This document shows positions 58,080 to 64,000 of a stretch of DNA of 64,000 nt, piece by piece. The notes beneath the pieces were generated by a model, which saw only the letters and a program-made list of their open reading frames with translations, was not told the DNA's origin and ran no database searches. The position numbers were made by a program, and so were the translations under genes. Every line of letters starts with the position of its first letter. Within the stretch, counting starts at the first letter, position 1. The DNA comes from Sideroxydans sp. CL21 (lineage in GTDB: Bacteria > Pseudomonadota > Gammaproteobacteria > Burkholderiales > Gallionellaceae): the NCBI RefSeq assembly GCF_902459525.1, contig NZ_LR699166.1:2058501-2122500 (forward strand), written 5' to 3'.

Positions 58080-59063
58080 ATGAAAGCACCAATCCGCGTA
58101 GCAATTACCGGCGCCGCAGGACAAATCGGTTACAACCTTCTGTTCCGAATCGCCAATGGTGACATGCTGGGGCGCGAGCAACCGATCATTCTGCAACTGC
58201 TGGACATTCCCCCCGCCCAGGCGATGCTGCACGGCGTGGCGATGGAACTGGAAGACTGCGCCTTCCCCAACCTGCAACAAATCATCACTACCGACGATCC
58301 CCGTGTCGCCTTCCGCGATGCCGAAGTTGTAATACTGGTTGGTGCCCGTCCGCGCGGCAAGGGCATGGAACGCAAGGACCTGCTGGAAGCCAACGGTGCG
58401 ATCTTCTCGGAGCAAGGTCGCATCCTCAACGAGGTGGCGGCACGCCATGTAAAGGTACTGGTGGTCGGCAACCCCGCCAACACGAATGCCCTCATCGCCA
58501 TGAGGAACGCTCCCGACCTCGATCCGCAAAACTTCACCTCCATGATGCGCCTGGACCACAACCGCGGCATTGCGCAGGTGGCCTTGAAACTGTTCCAGCC
58601 GATACGCGATGTCAAGAAAATGGTTATCTGGGGCAACCACTCCGGCACACAATATCCCGACTTGTCACACTCCGAAATTCGCGGGCGCAAGGTAACCGAA
58701 GTGCTGCAAGACCTCGATTGGATCGAGAGCACTTTCATCCCCACCGTTCAGAAACGCGGTGCGGCCGTGATCGAAGCTCGCGGCCTGAGCAGTGCAGCGA
58801 GCGCCGCCAATGCCGCCATTTCCCACGTTCACGACTGGTTATTGCATTCGCATCACAACGATTGGGTCAGTATGGGCGTACCTTCCGATGGCAGTTATGG
58901 AATTCCGGAAGGGGTTATATACGGATTCCCCGTCACCTGCCGCAACGGCCGTTACCACATCGTGCAGGATCTGCCCATCAGCGACCTTGGCCGCAAGCAT
59001 ATGATGGACAGTTACAATGAATTGCTCGGTGAGCGCGACATGGTGAAACACCTGCTGGGTTAA
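58080..59063 (+). CDS. mdh: Malate dehydrogenase
   Basis: 327 aa, NAD-dependent, of the longer cytosolic-like MDH type. NAD loop [19 protein letters not shown], substrate arginines in [29 protein letters not shown], catalytic His in [19 protein letters not shown] lies before the ATG. TATAAT at 58047-58052 is a probable -10 in an AT-rich stretch; no strong -35 seen. A strong terminator follows at 59140-59175. Confidence 0.97.
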
Positions 59064-61846: not shown

Positions 61847-62260
61847 TTATCGCTTGCCGCCACCGAGGCCCATTCCGCCACCCATTCCACCTCCCATGCC
61901 CCCGCCCATACCACCTGCTGGAGGACTGTCAGGAATGGATGCGCCTTGCTCCTTGGCACGTTCCTTCATTCTTTCGTGATGCTCGGCACGCACTTTTTCA
62001 CGCTCTTCCTTGGTGGTAGTGCTGCGCATCTTGGCACGTTGCTGTTGACGCTCTTCGGGAGTCGATAACTCCCTGCCTGTTGTTTGCCGCGTGCGATCCT
62101 GTATTTGTGTCCGATCTTGCGTCTTCGTCTGATCCCGTGTCTGATCCTTGACCTGATCTTGAGTCTGATCCCTGGTTTGCGTCTGATCGGCAGCCATGGC
62201 AGCCATTCCAGACAACAAAGTAGCAACGGACAAGCTTAACAACATGACTTTCTTGTTCAT
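61847..62260 (-). CDS. Exported DQT-repeat, glycine-methionine-rich small protein
   Basis: 137 aa. Signal peptide MNKKVMLLSLSVATLLSGMA to about residue 23. Residues 25-60 are short repeats of DQT/DRT with Arg, Lys and Gln (TRDQTQDQVKDQTRDQTK). Residues 63-105 are a highly charged helix (KEEREKVRAEHHERMKE). Residues 116-135 are GGMGGGMGGGMG. GGAGGG lies before ATG 62260. Probably a disordered periplasmic or surface protein; family and function not recognised. It has its own terminator and is divergent from the Memo operon. Confidence 0.75.
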   Translation of the reverse strand: MNKKVMLLSLSVATLLSGMAAMAADQTQTRDQTQDQVKDQTRDQTKTQDRTQIQDRTRQTTGRELSTPEERQQQRAKMRSTTTKEEREKVRAEHHERMKERAKEQGASIPDSPPAGGMGGGMGGGMGGGMGLGGGKR

Positions 62261-62493
62261 AATGCCCTCCAACTGGATTTGGGATGGCCCGAAAAGTTCA
62301 TTAAAGACTCATCTTCATACTCCCATACCATCCCGCTACGGAAGCACAGGAGGTATGCTACATCTGCAATTGAGCAATGTCAGTGATGCACGTCACATAA
62401 GTCCCGGAAAAATACCCTGCTTCAAACCTGGCAAGGGCTTGATTCTTCCTGTTCTGTCTCAATATTGTCGAGTATTACAACCAGGAGATCGCC

Positions 62494-63294
62494 ATGCCTG
62501 CCGTTCGTCCACCCGCTGTGGCCGGAATGTTCTACCCGGCCGATCCACGGCAACTCGCACATGATGTGCAGAAATTCCTGCGTGAGGCGCAGCCGCGAGC
62601 CTTGAACCCCAAAGTTCTGGTCTGCCCGCACGCTGGTTACATCTATTCCGGCGCAATCGCTGCGAGTGCCTATGCTGTATTGCATGACATCGCACCGCAT
62701 ATACGCCGCGTGGTACTACTGGGCCCTACCCACCGGATCGCAATAAATGGGTTGGCCTTGCCGAACGCCGAGGCATTCGATACACCGCTGGGGCGTATAT
62801 CTCTGGATACCAAAGCGATGCGCATCATTGCGGATCTGCCTCAAGTGGTCGTCAACAATGAAGCGCACCGGCAGGAACACTCGCTGGAAGTGCAGTTGCC
62901 ATTCCTGCAAAGCGTATTGAAGGATTTCACTTTGCTGCCGTTGGCGGTTGGCATGGCAACAGCAGAAGAAGTGGCTGAAGTGCTGGAAAAAGTATGGGGT
63001 GGAGAGGAAACATTGATCGTCATCAGCTCCGACCTGTCGCATTATCTGCCCTATGCTGCCGCACAATCCGTAGACAACAAAACCATCCGCGATATCCTTG
63101 CTCTGAGGCAGCCCGTCGCCCATGATCAAGCATGTGGTGCGACACCCATCAACGGACTGATTCTCTCCGCACGCAGGCACCGGCTAATCCCCCATCTGCT
63201 TGATCTGCGAAACTCTGGCGACACAGCCGGATCCAAGAACGAAGTAGTCGGGTATGCTTCCATCGCCTTCACTGAAGGAGAACAGAATGATTGA
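62494..63294 (+). CDS. amrB: AmmeMemoRadiSam system protein B (Memo family)
   Basis: 266 aa. Memo fold related to extradiol dioxygenases. Conserved metal-site-like motifs: VCPHAGYIYSG, VVLLGPTHRIAI, EHSLEVQLPFLQ and VISSDLSHYLPY. CAGGAG lies before the ATG. It overlaps the next gene by 8 bp. Together with the AMMECR1 protein and radical SAM enzyme it forms the three-gene AmmeMemoRadiSam set, whose reaction I do not know to be established. Confidence 0.93.
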   Translation: MPAVRPPAVAGMFYPADPRQLAHDVQKFLREAQPRALNPKVLVCPHAGYIYSGAIAASAYAVLHDIAPHIRRVVLLGPTHRIAINGLALPNAEAFDTPLGRISLDTKAMRIIADLPQVVVNNEAHRQEHSLEVQLPFLQSVLKDFTLLPLAVGMATAEEVAEVLEKVWGGEETLIVISSDLSHYLPYAAAQSVDNKTIRDILALRQPVAHDQACGATPINGLILSARRHRLIPHLLDLRNSGDTAGSKNEVVGYASIAFTEGEQND

Positions 63295-63853
63295 TTCAAA
63301 CCGGGGGAGAGTACTTCTCGACCTCGCGCGCGGCGCCATCTCCGAGGCGCTGGGTGAAGCGAGTTCGCCAGTATCACAAGAACAATGGCTGAACGAGAAA
63401 GGCGCAACGTTCGTCACACTGACACAAAATGGCGAGTTGCGCGGCTGCATTGGCACGTTGCAGGCGCATCGCCCGCTGGGTGAGGATGTGCGCCAAAACG
63501 CACTCGCCGCGGCATTCCGAGACCCGCGTTTCAAACCTCTCGGTCGGGACGAGTTGCCGGTGACGCGATGCGAGGTTTCCCTGTTGTCAGCGGCCGAAAC
63601 GATGAAGTTCAGCGACGAGCATGATGTGCTGGCGCAACTGCGCCCGGGAATAGACGGTGTCATTTTCGAATATGGCTCTTATCGCAGCACTTTTCTACCG
63701 CAGGTCTGGGAACAGCTACCCGAGCCGCGCGATTTCATGGCACATCTCAAGCGCAAAGCCGGGTTACCTGACAATTTCTGGGCACCAGAAATCAAGCTGT
63801 CGCGTTACACCGTAAGCAAGTGGCGCGAGACTGATTTCACCGAGGCATGCTGA
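63287..63853 (+). CDS. amrA: AmmeMemoRadiSam system protein A (AMMECR1 domain)
   Basis: 188 aa. AMMECR1 domain with the hallmark LRGCIGTLQA at about residues 55-64, ALAAAFRDPRFKPLGRDEL, and FLPQVWEQLP near the C-terminus. The ATG at 63287 follows GAAGGAG and lies in the end of the Memo gene. The ORF could extend 11 codons upstream but that overlaps more of Memo. The radical SAM gene follows after 1 bp. Confidence 0.93.
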   Translation: MIDSNRGRVLLDLARGAISEALGEASSPVSQEQWLNEKGATFVTLTQNGELRGCIGTLQAHRPLGEDVRQNALAAAFRDPRFKPLGRDELPVTRCEVSLLSAAETMKFSDEHDVLAQLRPGIDGVIFEYGSYRSTFLPQVWEQLPEPRDFMAHLKRKAGLPDNFWAPEIKLSRYTVSKWRETDFTEAC

Positions 63854-63854
63854 A

Positions 63855-64000
63855 ATGGATGAACCTATCAGCATCTCCGAGCGGTATCCGGCCAGATATT
63901 GGCACAAGCTGGATGACGGACGCATACAGTGCGATCTGTGTCCGCGTGACTGCAAATTGCATGAAGGGCAGCGCGGCGCATGCTTCGTGCGGGGACGTAT
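63855..64000 (+). CDS. amrS: AmmeMemoRadiSam radical SAM enzyme, N-terminal part (cut by window edge)
   Basis: The first 48 codons. The N-terminus has RYWHKLDDGRIQCDLCPRDC and GQRGACFVRGR, with Cys26, Cys29, Cys33 and Cys43, the pattern seen before the SAM-binding domain in this family. The radical SAM CxxxCxxC motif itself lies beyond the window. The ATG at 63855 is 1 bp after the stop of the AMMECR1 gene. Confidence 0.85.
   Translation, partial: MDEPISISERYPARYWHKLDDGRIQCDLCPRDCKLHEGQRGACFVRGR

Follow-up and report, generated by a model that had tools for sequence, protein, structure and literature searches.

What a compact set of Memo-family, AMMECR1-domain and radical SAM genes makes or modifies is the question raised by the last 1.5 kb of the window, by which we mean the whole 64,000-nucleotide stretch of Sideroxydans DNA that was analysed. 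The three genes lie on the same strand of a host genome that consists of a single contig of 3.77 Mb, as listed here.

62494..63294, + strand: Memo gene (AmmeMemoRadiSam protein B, amrB), 266 aa; TIGR04336, PF01875
63287..63853, + strand: AMMECR1-domain gene (protein A, amrA), 188 aa; TIGR04335, PF01871
63855..64000, + strand: 5' part of the radical SAM gene (amrS), with its ATG at 63855; TIGR04337

A complete member of a named gene set

The ORF coordinates confirm the spacing given in the initial annotation, with an 8-bp overlap between the Memo and AMMECR1 genes and a 1-bp gap between the AMMECR1 and radical SAM genes, all on one strand. The AMMECR1 stop codon occupies 63851-63853. Its start is placed at 63254 in the mechanical ORF list (199 aa), and the in-operon ATG is at 63287 (188 aa). 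An AGGAGA-like ribosome site is present immediately 5' of the Memo gene. The radical SAM gene runs beyond the window to the equivalent of position 64949, as read from L002, a genome stretch that spans the window edge (window position = L002 position + 57000; gene at L002:6855-7949), and is complete at 364 aa. It had been called a radical SAM gene from its truncated beginning, and the sequence past 64000 bears this out by supplying the expected CxxxCxxC motif. A scan of L002 5200-8200 yielded four promoter-like sites, against 1.7 (sd 1.5) for shuffled sequence, and three terminator-like sites, against 2.3 (sd 1.5); a promoter-like site lies on the Memo strand 230 bases upstream of Memo.

All three proteins exceed their NCBIfam cut-offs, with 271.5 bits against 26 for Memo (TIGR04336), 200.4 against 99 for AMMECR1 (TIGR04335), and 633.4 against 220 for the radical SAM protein (TIGR04337, E = 1e-190 in its own genome). 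They also match the Pfam families PF01875, PF01871 and PF04055, respectively, and each of the three has one match in the whole genome. These three linked genes are therefore the standard, already named AmmeMemoRadiSam set (amrA, amrB, amrS), and the window copy is an ordinary, complete member of this widespread system. Its gene order, B-A-S, is that of 75 of 80 relatives, and it shows no difference from the system as known, with B and A separate here and joined in one ORF in 16 of those relatives. The initial annotation regarded the joint reaction as unsettled, in agreement with the type 'hypoth_equivalog' given to all three NCBIfam models, and no reaction for the bacterial trio was found reported in the literature surveyed, mostly at the level of listings and passages.

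The surroundings are mixed. Downstream of the trio is an HD-domain protein gene on the opposite strand. Divergent from the trio, positions 61847-62272 (- strand) encode a small exported-looking protein with a middle rich in DQT/DRT repeats and a GGM-rich end, for which there is no Pfam match. Further upstream is an ORF (58080-59063, + strand) that we take to be malate-dehydrogenase-like, and its family recurs on the same strand upstream of the trio in seven loci, L002 included.

Conserved residues and predicted folds

Memo residues were assigned from a profile of 23 sequences aligned to human MEMO1 (7kq8), with residue numbers counted from chain positions. The sites of interest in the three genes are the following.

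62629..62631, + strand: H46 codon (human MEMO1 iron ligand H49); H in 75/75 canonical sequences
62731..62733, + strand: H80 codon (human H81), from the profile alignment to 7kq8
63133..63135, + strand: C214 codon (human C244), from the profile alignment to 7kq8
63437..63454, + strand: LRGCIG motif of AMMECR1; R52, G53, C54 and G56 each in 78/78 canonical sequences
63930..63983, + strand: C26, C29, C33 and C43 of the radical SAM protein, upstream of its SAM-cluster motif; each in 81/81 canonical sequences

The PHAGY, GPTHR, SSDLSH and LRGCIG motifs named in the initial annotation are all present in the translations, and its statement that Memo and AMMECR1 both look active holds at the level of residue conservation. 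Specifically, the window Memo is homologous to human MEMO1 (7kq8, 7l5c, 3bcz) along the domain and keeps all three of the iron ligands described for the human structure, H49, H81 and C244 (PMC11081632), in the form of H46, H80 and C214. The human protein has an insertion after its SSDFCH segment, whereas the window copy has none. The 2-His-1-Glu/Asp iron site of extradiol (LigB) enzymes is not present in the window Memo, where the third ligand position is C214; the same replacement of Glu by Cys is described for MEMO1, which showed no dioxygenase activity with the substrates its authors tried, according to passages of the same paper (PMC11081632). The overall fold is nevertheless alike, in that the Memo domain in the fusion model of a relative resembles LigB-type extradiol dioxygenases such as 2-aminophenol dioxygenase (3vsg, Foldseek E 3.4e-7). 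A model of the natural Memo-AMMECR1 fusion of Thiobacillus (L037) gave a pLDDT of 94.3 for the domains and a pTM of 0.75, and the latter value leaves the placement of AMMECR1 on Memo unsettled. The folds of the fusion model match MEMO1 and archaeal AMMECR1 proteins, and LigB-type dioxygenases more weakly.

The radical SAM protein AmrS carries its SAM-cluster motif as CNLACKFC (C91-x3-C95-x2-C98), which is kept in all 81 aligned canonical sequences, as are eight further cysteines (26, 29, 33, 43, 308, 311, 334 and 337). The N-terminal site of four cysteines is probably an auxiliary metal site. The AmrS model (pLDDT 87.7, pTM 0.90) finds its nearest solved fold in PFL activase (3cb8, 3c8f; TM 0.80 by target length, 18% identity), from which it differs by the extra four-Cys motifs at both ends.

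By sequence, too, PFL activase is the closest protein of solved structure to AmrS, weaker NCBIfam matches point to the same kin, and the predicted fold is of the kind that a glycyl-radical-enzyme activase would have. AmrS might therefore generate a glycyl radical, or one of similar kind, in a protein, and Memo and AMMECR1 would be accessories or the targets themselves, a role that the near-invariant LRGCIG motif also supports. However, the Gly_radical domain (PF01228) is absent from the window's own genome, which thus lacks a cognate enzyme, and from 48 of the 59 genomes that carry the trio (it is present in 11), and on this ground we reject glycyl-radical activation as the general role. Furthermore, an AMMECR1 protein can be present where the radical SAM family is missing, as in Haloferax, in one genome of our sample (G109) and in animals. 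Overall, we judge activation of a protein in this manner to be improbable.

Co-occurrence and linkage in other genomes

Among 150 Pseudomonadota genomes, matches over the cut-offs were found in 61 for TIGR04337 and in 60 each for TIGR04336 and TIGR04335, with the Memo and AMMECR1 lists comprising the identical 60 genomes. The whole trio is present in 59 genomes, none of it in 88, and an incomplete set in three. One of these (G109) has Memo and AMMECR1 in a fragmented assembly in which radical SAM does not exceed its cut-off, and the other two (G022 and G127) have radical SAM only, with no Memo or AMMECR1 match in the whole genomes. These genomes are not independent because the sample is clustered, with one family (f24) very frequent and Memo found in 27 of 92 genera. 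Among 97 Myxococcota genomes, where the thresholds differ, Memo was detected in 41, TIGR04337 in 39, both in 37, one alone in six, and neither in 54. In a set of 14 control genomes, Haloferax has AMMECR1 but not Memo, and Thermus composti has Memo but not AMMECR1.

Three loci, L112 (from G022), L113 (from G127) and L119, encode a long variant radical SAM protein that is extended at its C-terminus and has Ser instead of the second N-terminal Cys.

Gene neighbours were mapped in the 80 relatives fetched by the radical SAM protein, which are the closest 80 of 592 and thus biased to near kin. The whole trio is contiguous on one strand in 75 of them. It is cut by a contig end in two (L005 and L067), and one or both partners are missing beside the radical SAM gene in three (L035, L045 and L076). 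Searches of whole genomes revealed that Paraburkholderia panacisoli (G150) has the radical SAM gene but matches neither Memo nor AMMECR1, that Variovorax sp. Sphag1AA (G151) has Memo and radical SAM with no AMMECR1 match, and that the myxococcote Hyalangium (G152) has an unlinked radical SAM gene with a Memo/AMMECR1 pair elsewhere in the genome. The suggestion in the initial annotation that the tight coupling reflects one complex or pathway is thus upheld in part. Co-occurrence, contiguity and the natural Memo-AMMECR1 fusions are in its favour, but the parts sometimes live apart, and the ability of the radical SAM protein to persist alone argues against a strictly obligate complex. We know of no radical SAM partner of MEMO1 in animals.

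Sideroxydans, Gallionella, Nitrosomonas and Thiobacillus are among the nearest relatives, and human MEMO1 is described as binding iron and interacting genetically with iron genes (in passages of PMC11081632). Both observations have been counted for a role in iron or copper handling, wherein Memo would be a metal-binding regulator and the trio would serve metal or Fe-S homeostasis. However, these genera say little about the whole family because they were chosen by similarity to the window copy, and family genes also reside on a plasmid of a human-source Segatella (amrB and amrS) and on Sinorhizobium plasmids (radical SAM genes). Such a role would also leave the usual radical SAM partner unexplained, and we regard it as highly improbable.

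Three records are perhaps mislabelled or contaminating bacterial DNA. Two, titled Chitinophaga pinensis (L039) and Halobacteria archaeon (L053), contain trios very like betaproteobacterial ones, and the third is an unannotated faecal 'Bacteriophage sp.' record with a Memo match (MT836786 3906-4685).

A sister branch with export-like signals

Sampling covered Pseudomonadota and Myxococcota, and all export signals described here were called with crude patterns rather than with a calibrated predictor. One set of Pseudomonadota families, perhaps Magnetococcia, contains 13 extra Memo-AMMECR1 fusions, 11 of which (L103-L109, L111 and L120-L122) have a hydrophobic, Sec-like N-terminus, called by eye in three cases with long upstream frames. 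The other two (L117 and L118) have no such N-terminus, and the second His and the Cys are lost from their Memo ligands. In six of the 11 cases the Sec-like fusion has the radical SAM gene as its neighbour; in one the gene is distant on the same stretch, and in four it is off the stretch. At an additional locus (L110), a radical SAM gene lies beside a lone AMMECR1 with a Sec-like N-terminus. No export signals were found on the radical SAM proteins of this set.

In Myxococcota, 15 of 16 fused Memo-AMMECR1 frames carry a hydrophobic segment with a lipobox, and the 16th is cut at a contig end. Another contig of that same genome carries a Memo part with a lipobox, which is one of only two lipobox-bearing frames among the 45 unfused Myxococcota Memo frames. 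These counts left out two genomes (G182 and G214) in which Memo is present under the script threshold. When a positive charge is also required, 14 of the 16 fused frames pass. The export-like forms, counted with L117 and L118 excluded, keep the Memo ligands, with D at the Cys position in one of 15 lipoprotein forms. Their LRGCIG motif is likewise preserved apart from a single R-to-K change among 15 sequences and single C-to-S and I-to-M changes among 12.

Many Myxococcota radical SAM proteins start with twin-arginine-like signals such as MFKINRRKFLKYSTIFSGG and MNRRDFLKIPGALAAGAIAG. By rule, such a signal is scored in 10 of the 17 genomes that have a Memo with a lipobox and in none of the 24 others that have Memo or radical SAM. 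A further five of the 17 (G163, G170, G172, G179 and G191) were recognized by eye, not blind, leaving two without (G197 and G232); the frame in G170 has no usual start codon close upstream. Under an earlier, similar rule, one signal was scored among 102 frames of canonical type and 10 among the 74 remaining frames. An extension over 195 Myxococcota genomes added seven radical SAM proteins from five further genomes, a non-random selection picked by high score or long frame. Of these, four have RR (in G342, G348, G303 and G306), one has a KR variant (G348), and two have no signal, namely L284 (G342), beside a signal-less unfused Memo, and the canonical-like L287 (G326). TatC was found in all 13 genomes tested, twelve from Myxococcota and the window's own, and its presence alone therefore says little. 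The Myxococcota loci with twin-arginine-like radical SAM proteins are L143, L157, L184, L185, L189-L192, L194-L196, L198, L199, L202, L228 and L281-L283, with KR in place of RR in L282.

A tree built from 78 radical SAM domains places 14 Tat-labelled proteins together with seven from the Pseudomonadota set plus L152 and L127 (SH-aLRT 94), and in it the window AmrS lies in a separate clade (SH-aLRT 99). This is a quick tree with long branches, in which five of the 14 Tat labels were assigned by eye and the Tat label needs two changes. The cluster cysteines are kept in all 14 proteins of the Tat set and all nine of the second export-like set, and the second C-terminal Cys is replaced by D in eight of the nine and in one of the 14. 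The window proteins have no signal sequences by eye (their starts are MPAVRPPAVAG, MIDSNRGRV and MDEPISISERY), and hence the window trio shows neither a signal on Memo or AMMECR1 nor a twin-arginine motif on the radical SAM protein, the features that mark the sister branch.

An in-frame TGA flagged in additional radical SAM genes raised the possibility of selenocysteine, which was rejected on reading the frames. In six or seven loci (L103-L109), the flagged TGA is the ordinary stop that directly follows a conserved GVW(T/A) terminus, and L114 and L115 are alike. The rejection rests on frames read individually, and stop flags that appeared later in Myxococcota fall outside that reading.

Genes near the trio and its sister branch

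Neighbour clustering of ORFs of at least 90 aa across 101 loci produced 24 clusters common to at least four loci, two of which are the trio itself and some of which are antisense shadow ORFs. No small precursor-like gene recurs beside the trio in this analysis, and short precursors would escape it because of the length limit. This result bears on the possibility that AmrS modifies an unlinked protein or peptide post-translationally and that Memo and AMMECR1 finish the product. A related radical SAM domain is described in peptide-processing conflict systems (in a passage of PMC7159879), which is consistent with such a function, but the clustering result is a point against it and we consider it unlikely.

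A membrane spermidine-synthase-like protein is encoded near or beside the radical SAM gene in 11 of 27 sister-branch loci, in none of 81 canonical loci (which represent 4.6x more DNA), and in none of 10 third-clade loci. Five of the 11 (L281-L283, L285 and L286) belong to the later, non-random selection, and leaving that out gives six of 22. Five of the 11 proteins also contain a double CxxxCPxG, as in the NosR/NapH polyferredoxins of the membrane, and Fer4_5 was matched in both members scanned. The arrangement differs from NosR/NapH-type proteins in that this part is joined to the spermidine-synthase-like domain and twice also to a radical SAM domain, and no such part turned up at any of the 81 canonical loci. 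NosR/NapH-type proteins work for periplasmic enzymes that leave the cytoplasm by the Tat route, and the NosR/NapH-like part would thus suit as an electron donor. Two genomes have these parts in one open frame.

L285 5323-9486, - strand: fused frame of genome G303, ~1,360-1,390 aa
L286 5278-9345, - strand: fused frame of genome G306, ~1,360-1,390 aa

In both frames the order is spermidine-synthase-like domain, ferredoxin-like domain, twin-arginine or transmembrane segment, and radical SAM domain, and both adjoin a lipobox-bearing Memo-AMMECR1 fusion. There may be a second branch of the system that functions outside the cytoplasm, a proposal to which we give an even chance. In this branch, a Tat-exported radical SAM protein, supplied with electrons by the NosR/NapH-like membrane ferredoxin domain and aided by the membrane spermidine-synthase-like domain, would act together with a lipoprotein fusion of Memo and AMMECR1 on an envelope or exogenous substrate.

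Proposed chemistry and substrate of the trio

For the window trio, we favour a cytosolic pathway that modifies a small or lipid-like compound in two steps, a radical SAM step and a Memo-AMMECR1 redox step, and we hold this reading tentatively, at slightly less than an even chance. AmrS, with its PFL-activase-like barrel and its N- and C-terminal four-Cys motifs, would make the 5'-deoxyadenosyl radical for C-H activation. Memo, whose LigB-type fold would bind iron through two His and a Cys, would form one functional unit with AMMECR1, and this unit may follow with a redox step that takes the same substrate or the product. The substrate would most likely be a small molecule, a lipid or an envelope-associated compound rather than a tRNA or a glycyl-radical enzyme. 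We infer this class from the predicted exported branch, whose substrate may have diverged.

The same branch is relevant to the proposal that the trio modifies a tRNA or a nucleotide base, with AMMECR1 binding nucleic acid through a RAGNYA-type fold. Work by Burroughs and colleagues reportedly discussed both nucleotide-base and isoprenoid modification, which has been counted for this proposal. AMMECR1 is called a RAGNYA-domain protein in one paper (in a passage of PMC6969169), and another cites Burroughs and colleagues (2019) for Memo-Ammecr1 systems (in a passage of PMC7159879). However, the lipobox of nearly all Myxococcota fusions and the hydrophobic N-terminus of most of the extra Pseudomonadota fusions count against such a target. 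If the sister branch is exported, then neither tRNA nor a cytosolic protein would be the general target, and the chemistry would need no RNA or ribosomes. Because this branch is predicted to be exported with its catalytic residues nearly all kept, a small, lipid or envelope-associated substrate is favoured over tRNA, although the substrates of the two branches could differ. Nucleic-acid modification is thus quite unlikely in our estimation.

If the exported branch is real, a radical SAM enzyme would be at work outside the cytoplasm, and it would have to be asked by what route SAM and low-potential electrons get there. Moreover, the range of compounds on which such systems act would be narrowed, with tRNA unlikely as a general substrate, and the window trio would represent the cytosolic form of a chemistry with a small or lipid-like substrate. 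A single search of openly accessible papers, with few subscription ones covered, found none on a periplasmic radical SAM enzyme, and novelty is therefore not claimed. The window copy is itself ordinary and of a known, named kind, and it is the comparison with relatives that provides a testable and surprising constraint. As a compact cytosolic set, the window trio is suited to deletion and reconstitution. The human counterparts of Memo and AMMECR1 have been tied to cancer-cell motility (in passages of PMC11081632) and to a developmental syndrome (in a passage of PMC6969169).

Other recurrent neighbours

A dienelactone-hydrolase-like gene is present in 21 of the clustered loci and a phosphoribosyltransferase gene in 10, as named from Pfam matches of one member of each, and neither adjoins the window trio. 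The former, found for instance at L008 4199-4855, is located downstream of the radical SAM gene, and all 19 cases scored for strand have the two genes in the same orientation.

A membrane protein with a Gate domain (nucleoside recognition) follows the export-like fusion in four loci, and its gene overlaps the fusion by 4 bp in L103, L106 and L120.

L103 5775-7076: Gate-domain protein
L106 33-1331: Gate-domain protein, with Pfam match
L120 4725-6029: Gate-domain protein, with Pfam match
L105 5224-6543: Gate-domain protein

A large lipoprotein-like protein is encoded near the lipobox fusion in six loci (L141, L142, L145, L148, L149 and L151). The protein from L151, the sole one scanned, contains choice-of-anchor D / HYDIN-type Ig domains.
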